Source of the DNA: Glycomyces luteolus
GTDB taxonomy: Bacteria; Actinomycetota; Actinomycetes; Mycobacteriales; Micromonosporaceae
DNA: 64,000 nucleotides
NCBI RefSeq assembly: GCF_027622875.1
Contig: NZ_JAPZVP010000001.1
Location: 363,142-427,141 of the forward strand
Direction of reading: 5' to 3'
The position numbers and the translations under genes are program-made. This document shows positions 128-3,508 of the stretch, piece by piece. The notes beneath the pieces were generated by a model, which did no database searches, was not told where the DNA came from, and saw only the letters and a program-made list of their open reading frames with translations. Each line of letters begins with the position of its first letter. Within the stretch, counting starts at the first letter, position 1.

Positions 128-168
128 TCAGGAATCGAGAAGCGAGCGTCGGACCCTCCCTCTAGAGT
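128..168 (+). promoter_or_regulatory. 16-bp element (copy 1) plus -10 of the UvrA-like gene
   Basis: TCAGGAATCGAGAAGC lies at 128-143. It is followed after 19 nt by TAGAGT (163-168), and exactly 7 nt later by ATG at 176. The identical 16-mer with nearly the same geometry occurs at 3056 and 38155. The geometry places the 16-mer over the -35 region, as expected for an activator site, and transcription would begin at the ATG (leaderless). The binding protein is inferred to be the AraC regulator at 2650-3093. Confidence 0.75.
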
Positions 169-175
169 GGCGGTC

Positions 176-2548
176 ATGAGCAAAGCCGTGAAGCCCTCCG
201 ATAGGCACGACGCCGACCGCCACGACATGATCCGTGTGCAGGGCGCCCGCGAGAACAACCTCAAGGACGTCAGCGTCGAGCTGCCGAAGCGCCGCCTGAC
301 CGTGTTCACGGGCGTCTCCGGCTCGGGCAAGAGCTCGCTCGTGTTCGACACGATCGCCGCCGAGTCGCAGCGGCTCATCAACGAGACCTACAGCGCGTTC
401 CTCCAGGGCTTCATGCCCACCCTGGCCCGCCCCGAGGTCGACGTGCTCGACGGCCTGACCACCGCGATCATCGTCGACCAGGAGCGGATGGGCGCCAACC
501 CCCGCTCGACCGTGGGCACCGTGACCGACGCCAACGCGATCCTGCGGGTCCTGTTCAGCAGGCTCGGCTCGCCGCAGATCGGGCCGCCGATCGCGTTCTC
601 GTTCAACGTCCCCGCGCGCAAGGCCAGCGGCGTCCTGACCTCCGCCACCGGCGAGAAGACCATCGTGCGCGAGGCGGTCTACCACGGCGGCATGTGCCCC
701 AGGTGCGAAGGCCGCGGCAGGATCTCGGACATCGACCTCACCCAGGTCCTGGACGAGTCCAAGTCGATCGCCGAGGGTGCGATCTCGGTCCCCGGCTACA
801 CCGCCGACGGCTGGATGGTGCAGACCTACCGCGAATCGGGCTTCCTCGACCCCGACAAGCCCATCGCGAAGTTCACCAAGAAGGAGCGCCACGACTTCCT
901 CTACAAGGAGCCCACGAAGATCAAGGCCAAGGGCATCAACGTCACCTACGAGGGCCTGATCCCGAAGATCCAGAAGTCGATGCTGTCCAAGGACCTCGAC
1001 GCGCTCCAGCCGCACATCCGCGCCTTCGTGGAACGGGTCGCCACGTTCGCCGCGTGCCCCGACTGCGGCGGGACCCGGCTCAGCGAATCCGCCCTCTCCT
1101 CGAAGATCAAGGGCGCCAGCATCGCCGACGTGTGCGCCATGCAGATCACGGACCTCGCCGAATGGGTCAAGGGCATCGACGAGCCGTCGCTCGCGCCGCT
1201 GCTGCAGGCGCTCAGCGAGAACCTCGACTCGTTCGTCGAACTCGGGCTCGGCTACCTCAGCCTCGAACGCCCCTCCGGCACCCTCTCGGGCGGCGAGGCC
1301 CAGCGCATCAAGATGCTCAGGCACCTCGGCTCCTCGCTCACCGACGTCACCTACGTCTTCGACGAGCCCACCATCGGCCTGCACCCGCACGACATCGAGC
1401 GGATGAACAACCTGCTCCTGCGGCTGCGCGACAAGGGCAACACCGTGCTCGTGGTCGAGCACAAGCCCGAGACGATCGCCATCGCCGACCACATCGTCGA
1501 CCTCGGACCCGGAGCGGGCACCGGCGGCGGCGACATCTGCTACGAGGGCACCCTCGACGGGCTGCGGTCCAGCGACACGGTCACCGGCCGCCACCTCGAC
1601 GACCGGGCCGCGATCAAGGAGGACGTGCGCAAGGCCACCGGCGCCATGGAGATCCGCGGCGCGACCACGAACAATCTAGACAATGTGGACGTCGACATCC
1701 CCGCGGGCGTGCTCACCGTCGTCACCGGCGTGGCGGGCTCCGGCAAGAGCTCCCTGATCCACGGCCACCTCGCGGGACAAGAGGGCGTGGTCGTCGTCGA
1801 CCAGACCGGCATCAAGGGCTCCCGGCGTTCCAACCCCGCCACCTACACCGGCCTGCTCGACCCGATCCGCAAGGCCTTCGCGAAGGCCAACGGCGTCAAG
1901 CCGGCGCTGTTCTCGGCCAACTCCGAAGGCGCCTGCCCCACCTGCAACGGCAACGGGGTGATCCTCACCGAGCTCGGGTTCATGGAGACCGTGTCCACGC
2001 CCTGCGAGGACTGCGGCGGGAAGCGGTTCGAGGCCACCGTCCTCGAATACCACCTCGGCGGCCGCGACATCAGCGAGGTCCTCGCCATGTCCGTCGCCGA
2101 GGCCGAGGCGTTCTTCAGCGACGGCGAGGCCAAGACCCCCGCTGCGCACAAGATCCTCCTCCGCCTCGCCGACGTCGGGCTCGGCTACCTCACCCTCGGG
2201 CAGCCGCTCAACACCCTCTCCGGCGGGGAGCGGCAGCGCCTGAAGCTCGCCACGCACATGGGCGACAAGGGCGGCGTCTACATCCTCGACGAGCCGACAA
2301 CCGGCCTCCACCTCGCCGACGTGGCGAACCTCCTCGGCCTGCTCGACCGGCTCGTGGACTCCGGGAAGACCGTGATCGTCATCGAGCACCACCAGGCCGT
2401 GATGGCCCACGCCGACTGGATCATCGACCTCGGCCCGGGCGCCGGCCACGACGGCGGCAAGGTCGTCTTCGAGGGCACGCCCGCCGACCTCGTGGCCGAC
2501 CGCTCCACCCTGACCGCCAAGCACCTCGCCGAGTACGTCGGCGCCTGA
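176..2548 (+). CDS. UvrA-like ABC-class ATPase (DrrC-type UvrA paralogue)
   Basis: This 790-residue protein has the duplicated UvrA architecture. Half one has Walker A GVSGSGKS (about residues 46-53), zinc-finger CPRC and CPDC pairs (near 174 and 294), signature LSGGEAQR (near 371) and Walker B with FDEPTIGLHPHD. Half two has GVAGSGKS (near 519), CPTC and CEDC pairs, LSGGERQR and LDEPTTGLH. It is about 150 residues shorter than housekeeping UvrA. Paralogues of this size are known in actinobacteria and linked to resistance to DNA-binding drugs. No uvrB or uvrC is nearby, so a specialised DNA-lesion or drug role is more likely than core excision repair. ATG 176 is preferred over the in-frame GTG 167 because it sits 7 nt after a -10 under the shared 16-bp element. 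Confidence 0.9.
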   Translation: MSKAVKPSDRHDADRHDMIRVQGARENNLKDVSVELPKRRLTVFTGVSGSGKSSLVFDTIAAESQRLINETYSAFLQGFMPTLARPEVDVLDGLTTAIIVDQERMGANPRSTVGTVTDANAILRVLFSRLGSPQIGPPIAFSFNVPARKASGVLTSATGEKTIVREAVYHGGMCPRCEGRGRISDIDLTQVLDESKSIAEGAISVPGYTADGWMVQTYRESGFLDPDKPIAKFTKKERHDFLYKEPTKIKAKGINVTYEGLIPKIQKSMLSKDLDALQPHIRAFVERVATFAACPDCGGTRLSESALSSKIKGASIADVCAMQITDLAEWVKGIDEPSLAPLLQALSENLDSFVELGLGYLSLERPSGTLSGGEAQRIKMLRHLGSSLTDVTYVFDEPTIGLHPHDIERMNNLLLRLRDKGNTVLVVEHKPETIAIADHIVDLGPGAGTGGGDICYEGTLDGLRSSDTVTGRHLDDRAAIKEDVRKATGAMEIRGATTNNLDNVDVDIPAGVLTVVTGVAGSGKSSLIHGHLAGQEGVVVVDQTGIKGSRRSNPATYTGLLDPIRKAFAKANGVKPALFSANSEGACPTCNGNGVILTELGFMETVSTPCEDCGGKRFEATVLEYHLGGRDISEVLAMSVAEAEAFFSDGEAKTPAAHKILLRLADVGLGYLTLGQPLNTLSGGERQRLKLATHMGDKGGVYILDEPTTGLHLADVANLLGLLDRLVDSGKTVIVIEHHQAVMAHADWIIDLGPGAGHDGGKVVFEGTPADLVADRSTLTAKHLAEYVGA

Positions 2549-2561
2549 CCGGCACCGTTCA

Positions 2562-2591
2562 CGCACGCCCGCGACCCGTCGCGGGCGTGCG
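2562..2591 (+). terminator. Intrinsic terminator after the UvrA-like gene
   Basis: A 13-bp perfect stem (2562-2574 with 2579-2591) closes on the tetraloop CCCG, 13 nt after the stop codon. There is no T-tract, as is usual in high-GC actinobacteria. Confidence 0.7.
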
Positions 2592-2649
2592 GTGCTCCCG
2601 GCGGGCGCCGCTCTTCGCCGACGTCGGCCGGCGGTGGCAGAATATGCCC

Positions 2650-3093
2650 GTGACCAGCCGACCGACCTCAGCACAGCGCCTGCGCGACCTCGCGCTCCTG
2701 CGGCGGGTGCGCGACCGCATCGACCGCGAGTACACCGAACCGCTCAACGTCGAGGCCCTCGCCCACGGCGTCCACATGTCGGCCGGGCACCTCAGCCGCG
2801 AATTCAAAGCCGCGTACGGCGAATCGGTCTACTCCTACCTCATGACCCGGCGCATCGAACGCGCGATGGCCCTGCTGCGCATCGGCGAGATGAACGTGAC
2901 CGAGGTGTGCTTCGCGGTCGGATCCTCCTCACTCGGCACGTTCAGCACGCGGTTCACCGAACTGGTCGGCATGCCGCCGAGCGTCTACAAGGAGAAGGCC
3001 GCCGACTCGACCCAGGGCATCCCCGCGTGCGTCTCCAAGCAGATCAGCAGACCGATCAGGAATCGAGAAGCACCTCGCACCGCCAAGAAATAG
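2650..3093 (+). CDS. Small AraC/XylS-family transcriptional regulator (HTH only)
   Basis: The protein is 147 residues, essentially a bare AraC DNA-binding domain with two helix-turn-helices (LAHGVHMSAGHLSREFKAAY and the later VCFAVGSSSLGTFSTRF). It has no N-terminal sensing domain. Start GTG 2650 lies 6 nt after CAGAAT (2638-2643), suggesting a leaderless start; ATG 2644 is the alternative. Its last codons contain the second copy of the 16-bp element, encoding RPIRNREA, so the downstream VOC promoter is embedded in this gene. Position and motif sharing make it the best candidate to control the UvrA-like and VOC genes. Confidence 0.9.
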   Translation: MTSRPTSAQRLRDLALLRRVRDRIDREYTEPLNVEALAHGVHMSAGHLSREFKAAYGESVYSYLMTRRIERAMALLRIGEMNVTEVCFAVGSSSLGTFSTRFTELVGMPPSVYKEKAADSTQGIPACVSKQISRPIRNREAPRTAKK

Positions 3094-3096
3094 GCT
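3056..3096 (+). promoter_or_regulatory. 16-bp element (copy 2) plus -10 of the VOC gene, inside the AraC 3' end
   Basis: TCAGGAATCGAGAAGC at 3056-3071 is followed after 19 nt by TAGGCT (3091-3096), and after 7 nt by ATG 3104. The element is protein-coding as well, within the last 13 codons of the AraC gene. Confidence 0.75.
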
Positions 3097-3103
3097 TGCC
3101 CGC

Positions 3104-3508
3104 ATGGACATCAGCATTTACCAGGCCTACCTGCCGCAGAACGACCCTGAAGCCGCCCTTGAGTTCTACCGGGACGTGCTCGGCTTCGAAGTCCGGAACG
3201 ACGTCGGCTACGAGGGCATGCGCTGGATCACCGTCGGACCCGTCGGGCAGCCGGACGTCTCCATCGTCCTGCACCCGCCGGCAGCCGACCCGGGCATCAC
3301 CGACGAGGAGCGCGCGACCATCGCCGAGATGATGGCCAAGGGCACCTACGCCTCCATCAACCTGTCGACGCCCGACCTCGACGAGGTCTTCGCGAAGCTC
3401 CAGGAGACCGCCGAAGTCGTCCAGGAGCCCACCGACCAGCCGTACGGCATCCGCGACTGCGCCTTCCGCGACCCGGCGGGCAACATGGTCCGCATCAAGC
3501 AGCAGTAG
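3104..3508 (+). CDS. VOC (glyoxalase/bleomycin-resistance) family protein
   Basis: The 134-residue single VOC module starts with the beta-alpha-beta unit EAALEFYRDVLGFEV and ends with RDPAGNMVRIKQQ, the usual metal-ligand strand. Family members are metal-dependent lyases or isomerases, or drug-sequestering proteins; the substrate cannot be read here. It is immediately downstream of the AraC regulator and transcribed from its own predicted leaderless promoter bearing the 16-bp element. That links it to the UvrA-like protein and to the VOC protein at 38204. Confidence 0.9.
   Translation: MDISIYQAYLPQNDPEAALEFYRDVLGFEVRNDVGYEGMRWITVGPVGQPDVSIVLHPPAADPGITDEERATIAEMMAKGTYASINLSTPDLDEVFAKLQETAEVVQEPTDQPYGIRDCAFRDPAGNMVRIKQQ

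Follow-up and report, generated by a model that had tools for sequence, protein, structure and literature searches.

A near-invariant DNA element appears to place antibiotic-defense-like genes under one small AraC-type regulator in several bacterial phyla

Introduction

Why should one 16-nucleotide sequence stand, letter for letter, ahead of three separate genes in a single stretch of actinobacterial DNA? This question is raised by a 64,000-nucleotide region of Glycomyces luteolus (contig NZ_JAPZVP010000001.1, positions 363,142 to 427,141), in which TCAGGAATCGAGAAGC precedes the genes for a UvrA-like ATPase and two VOC proteins. This whole stretch is called the window below, and positions are numbered from its first nucleotide. 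We conclude that the element, which is usually preceded by CGR (where R is a purine), is probably the binding site of a single-domain AraC-type protein encoded in the same window, and that it would serve in class II activation of three putative drug-defense promoters. As judged from sequence comparisons, this short DNA switch, nearly unchanged over several phyla, seems to allow a single small regulator to activate antibiotic-defense-like genes.

Three promoters share the element

A scan of the window found exactly three identical copies, all on the plus strand, in agreement with a reading of the locus made earlier from the sequence alone (the sequence-only reading). Shuffled versions of the window yielded a mean of 0.43 matches at up to three mismatches. 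The gap between the 16-mer and a TANNNT hexamer resembling a bacterial -10 element is 19 nt for the copies beginning at 128 and 3056 and 20 nt for the copy beginning at 38155, and each hexamer is located exactly 7 nt upstream of an ATG (at 176, 3104, and 38204). This geometry had likewise been described, and it holds at all three copies. A point absent from that description is that the copy at 3056 resides inside the araC reading frame and that its -10 hexamer begins with the TAG stop codon of araC. The relevant features are as follows.

128 to 143, plus strand: operator copy 1 (core 16-mer), with the conserved extension CGG at 125 to 127
163 to 168, plus strand: -10 hexamer TAGAGT of the uvrA-like gene
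176 to 2548, plus strand: class II UvrA-like ATPase (Ecm16-like), 790 amino acids, leaderless-type start
2635 to 2643, plus strand: extended -10-like element TGGCAGAAT of araC, 6 nt upstream of the GTG
2650 to 3093, plus strand: single-domain AraC-type regulator, 147 amino acids (GTG start inferred from alignment; an ATG at 2644 is possible)
3056 to 3071, plus strand: operator copy 2, within the araC 3' end and encoding IRNREA, with the extension CGA at 3053 to 3055
3091 to 3096, plus strand: -10 hexamer TAGGCT of VOC1, whose TAG is the araC stop codon (3091 to 3093)
3104 to 3508, plus strand: VOC1, a TnmS2-like VOC protein, 134 amino acids, leaderless-type start
38155 to 38170, plus strand: operator copy 3, between a divergent gene (36879 to 38036, minus strand) and VOC2, preceded by TGA rather than CGR
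38191 to 38196, plus strand: -10 hexamer TATCGT of VOC2
38204 to 38869, plus strand: VOC2, probably a two-domain glyoxalase-like protein, 221 amino acids, leaderless-type start

Across all 49 contigs of the genome (5.74 Mb), the 16-mer occurred at only three sites with zero to two mismatches, and the reversed pattern used as a control gave none. Allowing three mismatches added 21 sites (7 for the reversed control), and none of these 21 is followed by TANNNT at 18 to 21 nt. The predicted regulon in this genome therefore consists of three promoters.

The element and its promoter spacing are conserved

A scan of named genomes for the exact 16-mer recovered at least 119 stretches with at least 121 exact copies; all counts of exact copies, loci, and hosts given below refer to the matches listed. 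TANNNT is present at 18 to 20 nt in 113 of the 121 copies (81 at 20 nt, 31 at 19 nt, and 1 at 18 nt; thus 112 have the hexamer at 19 or 20 nt), compared to 59 of 20,000 random places. The first ATG lies 7 nt past the hexamer in 81 of the 121. The sequence-only reading had named scattering of the 16-mer without regard to promoters as an outcome that would refute it, and such scattering is not what we observed. Copies outside the 3' ends of araC genes also maintain the spacing (42 of 49).

Eight copies are without TANNNT at this distance. Five occur in metagenome-assembled genomes (from Acidobacteria, Phycisphaerae, an unclassified bacterium, and two actinobacteria), and these look like chance matches. 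Among the other three, locus L105 carries TGGCGT where TANNNT is expected, and the copies at L081 and L082 are each located upstream of a gene from a target family. In the window's own genome and 60 relatives, the 16-mer was found with up to two mismatches in 55 of 61 genomes, and the reversed control gave one match in each of 15. Of the best matches in the relatives, the 29 that were retrieved include 24 with the hexamer, and the five others each have two mismatches. One relative of the same genus has a site context identical to that in the window.

Most hosts belong to the Actinomycetota, and others are Variovorax, Cupriavidus, Roseateles, Dyella, and one metagenome-assembled genome each of Deinococcota, Chloroflexi, and Eremiobacteraeota. 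A unit comprising araC, the site, and VOC1 is also present on a Cupriavidus plasmid and on three Deinococcus plasmids, in one of which the site has a single mismatch. Across the 119 loci, AraC-VOC1-UvrA recurs in 34 and AraC-VOC1 in 22, other phyla included, and araC is the sole regulator in this recurring unit.

Outside araC, the three bases upstream of the 16-mer are also conserved (C 82%, G 94%, and G 71%, in a set chosen partly for having the -10 hexamer), and positions further upstream are weakly conserved. With its CGR extension, the site thus spans about 19 bp. No conserved -35 hexamer was found among these matches, and the bases downstream of the 16-mer are weakly conserved G/C.

A single-domain AraC protein is the likely binder

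The AraC protein matches the Pfam families HTH_18 (6e-20) and HTH_AraC (3e-11) and no other domain. Both Pfam and a structural model that matches AraC-type domains identify it as a DNA-binding domain with two helix-turn-helix (HTH) motifs. It has no effector-binding domain: the 147 amino acids are modeled as helices only, residues 128 to 147 have a predicted local distance difference test score (pLDDT) below 50, and this C-terminal tail is predicted to be disordered. The PDB entry that matches it best by sequence is 7bef, which shows RamA in a class II complex, and the fold matches include MarA, SoxS, and RamA, ranked below other AraC-type domains. The HTH residues are nearly invariant across 54 sequences, as a fixed operator would require. 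In addition, Cys87 is invariant, Cys127 is conserved in at least 90% of sequences, and the tail residues RPxRNREA are conserved.

We also examined how the site and the protein are distributed in a class-level survey of 196 genomes, which contained 129 sites (16-mer plus -10 hexamer) in 76 genomes and none for the reversed control. Orthologs were defined by at least 65% identity over nearly the full length and, as above, were counted among the matches listed; at least 80 of the 196 genomes have one. Both site and AraC are present in 68 genomes, the site only in 8, AraC only in 12, and neither in 108, such that AraC occurs in 68 of 76 site-bearing genomes versus 12 of 120 genomes without the site. 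Two partial matches (66 to 79%) were excluded, one from a genome that was counted anyway (G067:C24) and one from a genome without a site (G141:C36), whose inclusion would give 13 of 120. Because many sites are located within araC itself, genomes with sites away from araC were counted separately, and 43 of these 51 encode AraC. Seven of the remaining eight have an AraC protein of 54 to 65% identity, and the last, a genome that is 91% complete, gave none at an E value of 1e-25.

These comparisons make the single-domain AraC protein the likely binder of the 16-mer. The sequence-only reading had predicted this protein as the regulator, a proposal now supported by its co-occurrence with the site, the placement of the site in the araC 3' end, and class II spacing. 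Its remark that no other regulator is nearby is accurate for positions 128 to 3508; further out, about 2.3 kb downstream of VOC1, a reading frame at 5770 to 6735 (minus strand) may encode a WYL/YafY-type regulator. The genome also encodes a second AraC protein (45% identity) on a different contig from the three sites. In a FastTree phylogeny of 92 AraC sequences, seven from Pseudomonadota are scattered, which suggests several transfers, with the caveats of a short protein and uneven support.

The putative operator usually lies in the 3' end of araC

Of the exact copies, 72 of 121 are located in araC 3' ends. Among 93 araC genes examined, whose loci were mostly selected because they hold the exact 16-mer and in some cases because they do not, 67 have the 16-mer in the frame that encodes IRNREA. 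One explanation for its constancy is that the copies are conserved as code for the AraC C-terminal tail, and that noncoding copies are debris of araC duplications. The number of copies in araC and the conserved tail RPxRNREA are in keeping with this idea. However, the codons used in the operator are rare in the same 67 genes (AGG 19/1196, AAT 3/48, CGA 51/1196, and GAA 93/537), the encoded tail has the low pLDDT noted above, and the copies outside araC retain their spacing to the -10 hexamer and are weakly conserved upstream of CGR. Given the rare codons, the predicted disorder of the tail, and the extension seen outside araC, the DNA must be conserved and not the protein alone. We rejected coding constraint on codon use and regard it as the least likely of all the alternatives considered here.

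The -10 hexamer shares bases with the stop codon of araC in 52 of 64 araC copies with an intact tail motif, most commonly as TGA starting from the last base of the hexamer (33 copies) or TAG at its first (16 copies). An extended -10-like element of the TGGCACGAT type precedes 40 of 91 araC genes, mostly 6 to 7 nt upstream of the start codon, and thus araC may itself be leaderless. Since it is present in only 40 of 91 genes, we did not accept this element as a shared araC promoter. Autoregulation was likewise rejected as a general feature because only 2 of 91 araC genes have a site, at two mismatches or fewer, in the 160 nt ahead of them. Separately, at loci L107 (minus strand, site at 4690 on the reversed locus) and L254, the operator precedes an AraC-like gene, which suggests a regulator cascade.

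Target genes resemble antibiotic-defense genes

The UvrA-like protein has Pfam matches to ABC_tran and, weakly, to UvrA_DNA-bind. It aligns end to end with Ecm16 (1274 bits; 790 versus 812 amino acids), the next match scores 553 bits, and it falls below the canonical UvrA cut-off (692.5 of 729.8). Being full-length and nearer to Ecm16 than to canonical UvrA, it classifies by sequence as a class II UvrA (Ecm16/DrrC). Other UvrA relatives in this genome are on different contigs from the three sites. VOC1 matches the Pfam Glyoxalase/VOC family and has a TnmS2-like VOC fold, with TnmS2 and UcmS2 as its best solved relatives (template modeling score 0.85, 31 to 34% identity). No histidine is conserved in at least 90% of 58 VOC1 sequences, which speaks against a metal-dependent glyoxalase. 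VOC2 has VOC matches in both halves. Pfam therefore agrees with the targets originally named, a UvrA paralog and two VOC proteins, and the relatedness to Ecm16, a protein of echinomycin resistance, and to the antibiotic-binding TnmS2/UcmS2 fits the suggested response to a DNA-damaging or electrophilic compound, in which repair or sequestration is combined with VOC proteins.

More broadly, the genes downstream of 199 site records (not all distinct, with families named from one representative each) encode VOC1 (86), VOC2 (40), a family without a Pfam match (22), F420H2-quinone reductase (14), UvrA (11), VOC3 (7), DUF1059-like proteins (3, with a match just under the cut-off), AraC (2), and MFS transporters (2), together with nine single cases and three records for which no open reading frame was called. 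The family at 22 records (L224, L084, L085, L132, and others) comprises proteins of about 150 amino acids, and the one member tested had no Pfam match. Leaderless-type starts predominate for VOC1 (78 of 86) and VOC2 (29 of 40). At seven Pseudomonadota loci that were read, the -10 hexamer is kept and the VOC1 start is at least 23 nt further downstream, which means that VOC1 does not have a leaderless start everywhere.

Proposed mechanism and alternative explanations

The center of the site is 27 to 28 nt upstream of the -10 hexamer and, with transcription inferred to start 6 to 7 nt past the hexamer, near -40. A site that overlaps the -35 region near -40 at a fixed distance from the -10 element is the geometry of a class II activator. 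We propose that AraC would bind the 16-mer plus CGR, about 19 bp, and, acting in class II fashion, bring RNA polymerase to promoters that have a good -10 and no recognizable -35 element. In this genome, it would turn on just three promoters, each with a leaderless-type start. The Ecm16-like UvrA would then clear drug-bound DNA, VOC1 would sequester the drug by binding it, and the third activated target would be VOC2. In relatives, the regulon may also take in F420H2-dependent quinone reductases, other VOC proteins, the small Pfam-less family, and, in two instances, MFS transporters. The likely role is defense against DNA-binding natural products, aromatic or quinone in nature, that neighbors make, with Cys87 and Cys127 of AraC as a possible sensor.

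Several observations weigh against activation by this AraC protein. The co-occurrence counts take no account of relatedness or of genome size, and many of the genomes without AraC are small. Twelve genomes carry AraC of at least 65% identity and lack the exact site plus -10. An exact site with its hexamer is present at the gene's own 3' end in 53 of 82 AraC genes; among 18 of the other 29 that were read (L182 to L198 and L200), one has an exact site with an altered -10 and 12 have one mismatch, and the remaining five have four to seven mismatches. Leaderless-type starts are not general among the other targets (UvrA 3 of 11, quinone reductase 8 of 14, and the Pfam-less family 1 of 22). Some Ecm16-like uvrA genes to which plasmid searches led, on a Tsukamurella plasmid (L206) and in S. 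clavuligerus (L210), have no site within 4 kb. Furthermore, no site (up to two mismatches) stands upstream of araC in 89 of 91 genes, and the protein has no sensor domain through which a signal could enter.

The element could instead be the -35 or extended promoter of an alternative, extracytoplasmic function (ECF) sigma factor, because it contains GGAAT and its spacing to the -10 hexamer is strict. In ECF promoters, about 16 to 19 nt separate a GGAAT-type -35 from the -10 element, whereas the distance here is 27 to 28 nt. Moreover, the roughly 19 conserved bp exceed a -35 element, the -10 is an ordinary TANNNT, and the co-occurring regulator is AraC. We rejected this possibility on spacing and consider it very improbable. 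Repression or dual function by the same AraC, or binding by another, unlinked regulator, is a somewhat stronger contender, yet still unlikely. It draws on the 8 of 76 site-bearing genomes in which AraC is either more distant (7) or not found (1); the position near -40 at promoters without a -35 favors activation, and the recurring unit, in other phyla too, has no regulator besides araC. The most serious challenge concerns what the regulon answers, which might be electrophile or quinone (redox) stress in general and not antibiotics that bind DNA. An F420H2-dependent quinone reductase family is found among the targets (one of 14 members tested), the two AraC cysteines are conserved, and VOC proteins can be detoxifying enzymes. 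Conversely, Ecm16 is reported to act on drug-bound DNA, and the nearest structures to VOC1 are antibiotic-binding proteins. We judge redox stress the less probable signal, while noting that the two possibilities overlap because many DNA-binding antibiotics are quinones.

Relation to known systems and significance

MarA, SoxS, and RamA of enterobacteria bind near -40 at asymmetric sites of about 20 bp, a geometry that the system described here appears to share. The resemblance extends to a single-domain AraC-type protein and a predicted regulon for drug and redox defense. Nevertheless, our AraC protein scores far under the curated equivalog cut-offs (RamA 44.5 of 180, SoxS 33.5 of 174, and MarA 22.8 of 202 bits), and we therefore did not assign it to these families. 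The system also differs in its near-invariant operator, the placement of that operator in the regulator's own 3' end, its leaderless-type VOC targets, and its other effectors. Thus, the kind of AraC protein is ordinary, the operator is unusually fixed and unusually placed in the end of its own gene, and the target set is coherent.

Ecm16- and TnmS-type proteins serve in the self-protection of antibiotic producers. In one study, Ecm16 is reported to bind DNA, to be stimulated by echinomycin-bound DNA, and to protect against several bisintercalators (PMC10192343); another describes the use of UvrA-like genes as markers for clusters of DNA intercalators (PMC10413001). The UvrA-like protein here matches Ecm16 from end to end and differs in being preceded by this operator. 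TnmS1 to TnmS3 are described in a further report as sequestering tiancimycin, with homologs in other bacteria (PMC9854587). VOC1 shares their fold but is predicted to be under AraC control, whereas tnmS1 and tnmS2 are reported to be repressed by TnmR1 and TnmR3 (PMC9464397). The literature searched, which comprised open-license papers, yielded no account of the element or of its regulon.

A broader and more tentative idea, which we hold to be somewhat less than an even bet, is that the locus represents a self-contained, horizontally moving resistance-regulon kit, a counterpart of Mar/Sox in high-GC bacteria directed against DNA-binding natural products, perhaps with cysteine sensing. The activator gene would hold the operator in its last codons, with its stop codon overlapping the target's -10 hexamer. 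Because of this placement, any transferred copy would arrive already wired, and resident genes could join by acquiring the same 19-bp site.

If our proposal is true, Ecm16- and TnmS-type proteins would have a dedicated, highly conserved control circuit across actinobacteria, one that apparently reached other phyla by transfer. The 19-bp tag would then predict new drug-defense genes, such as the Pfam-less family at 22 sites, and the question of the inducer would be directly testable.

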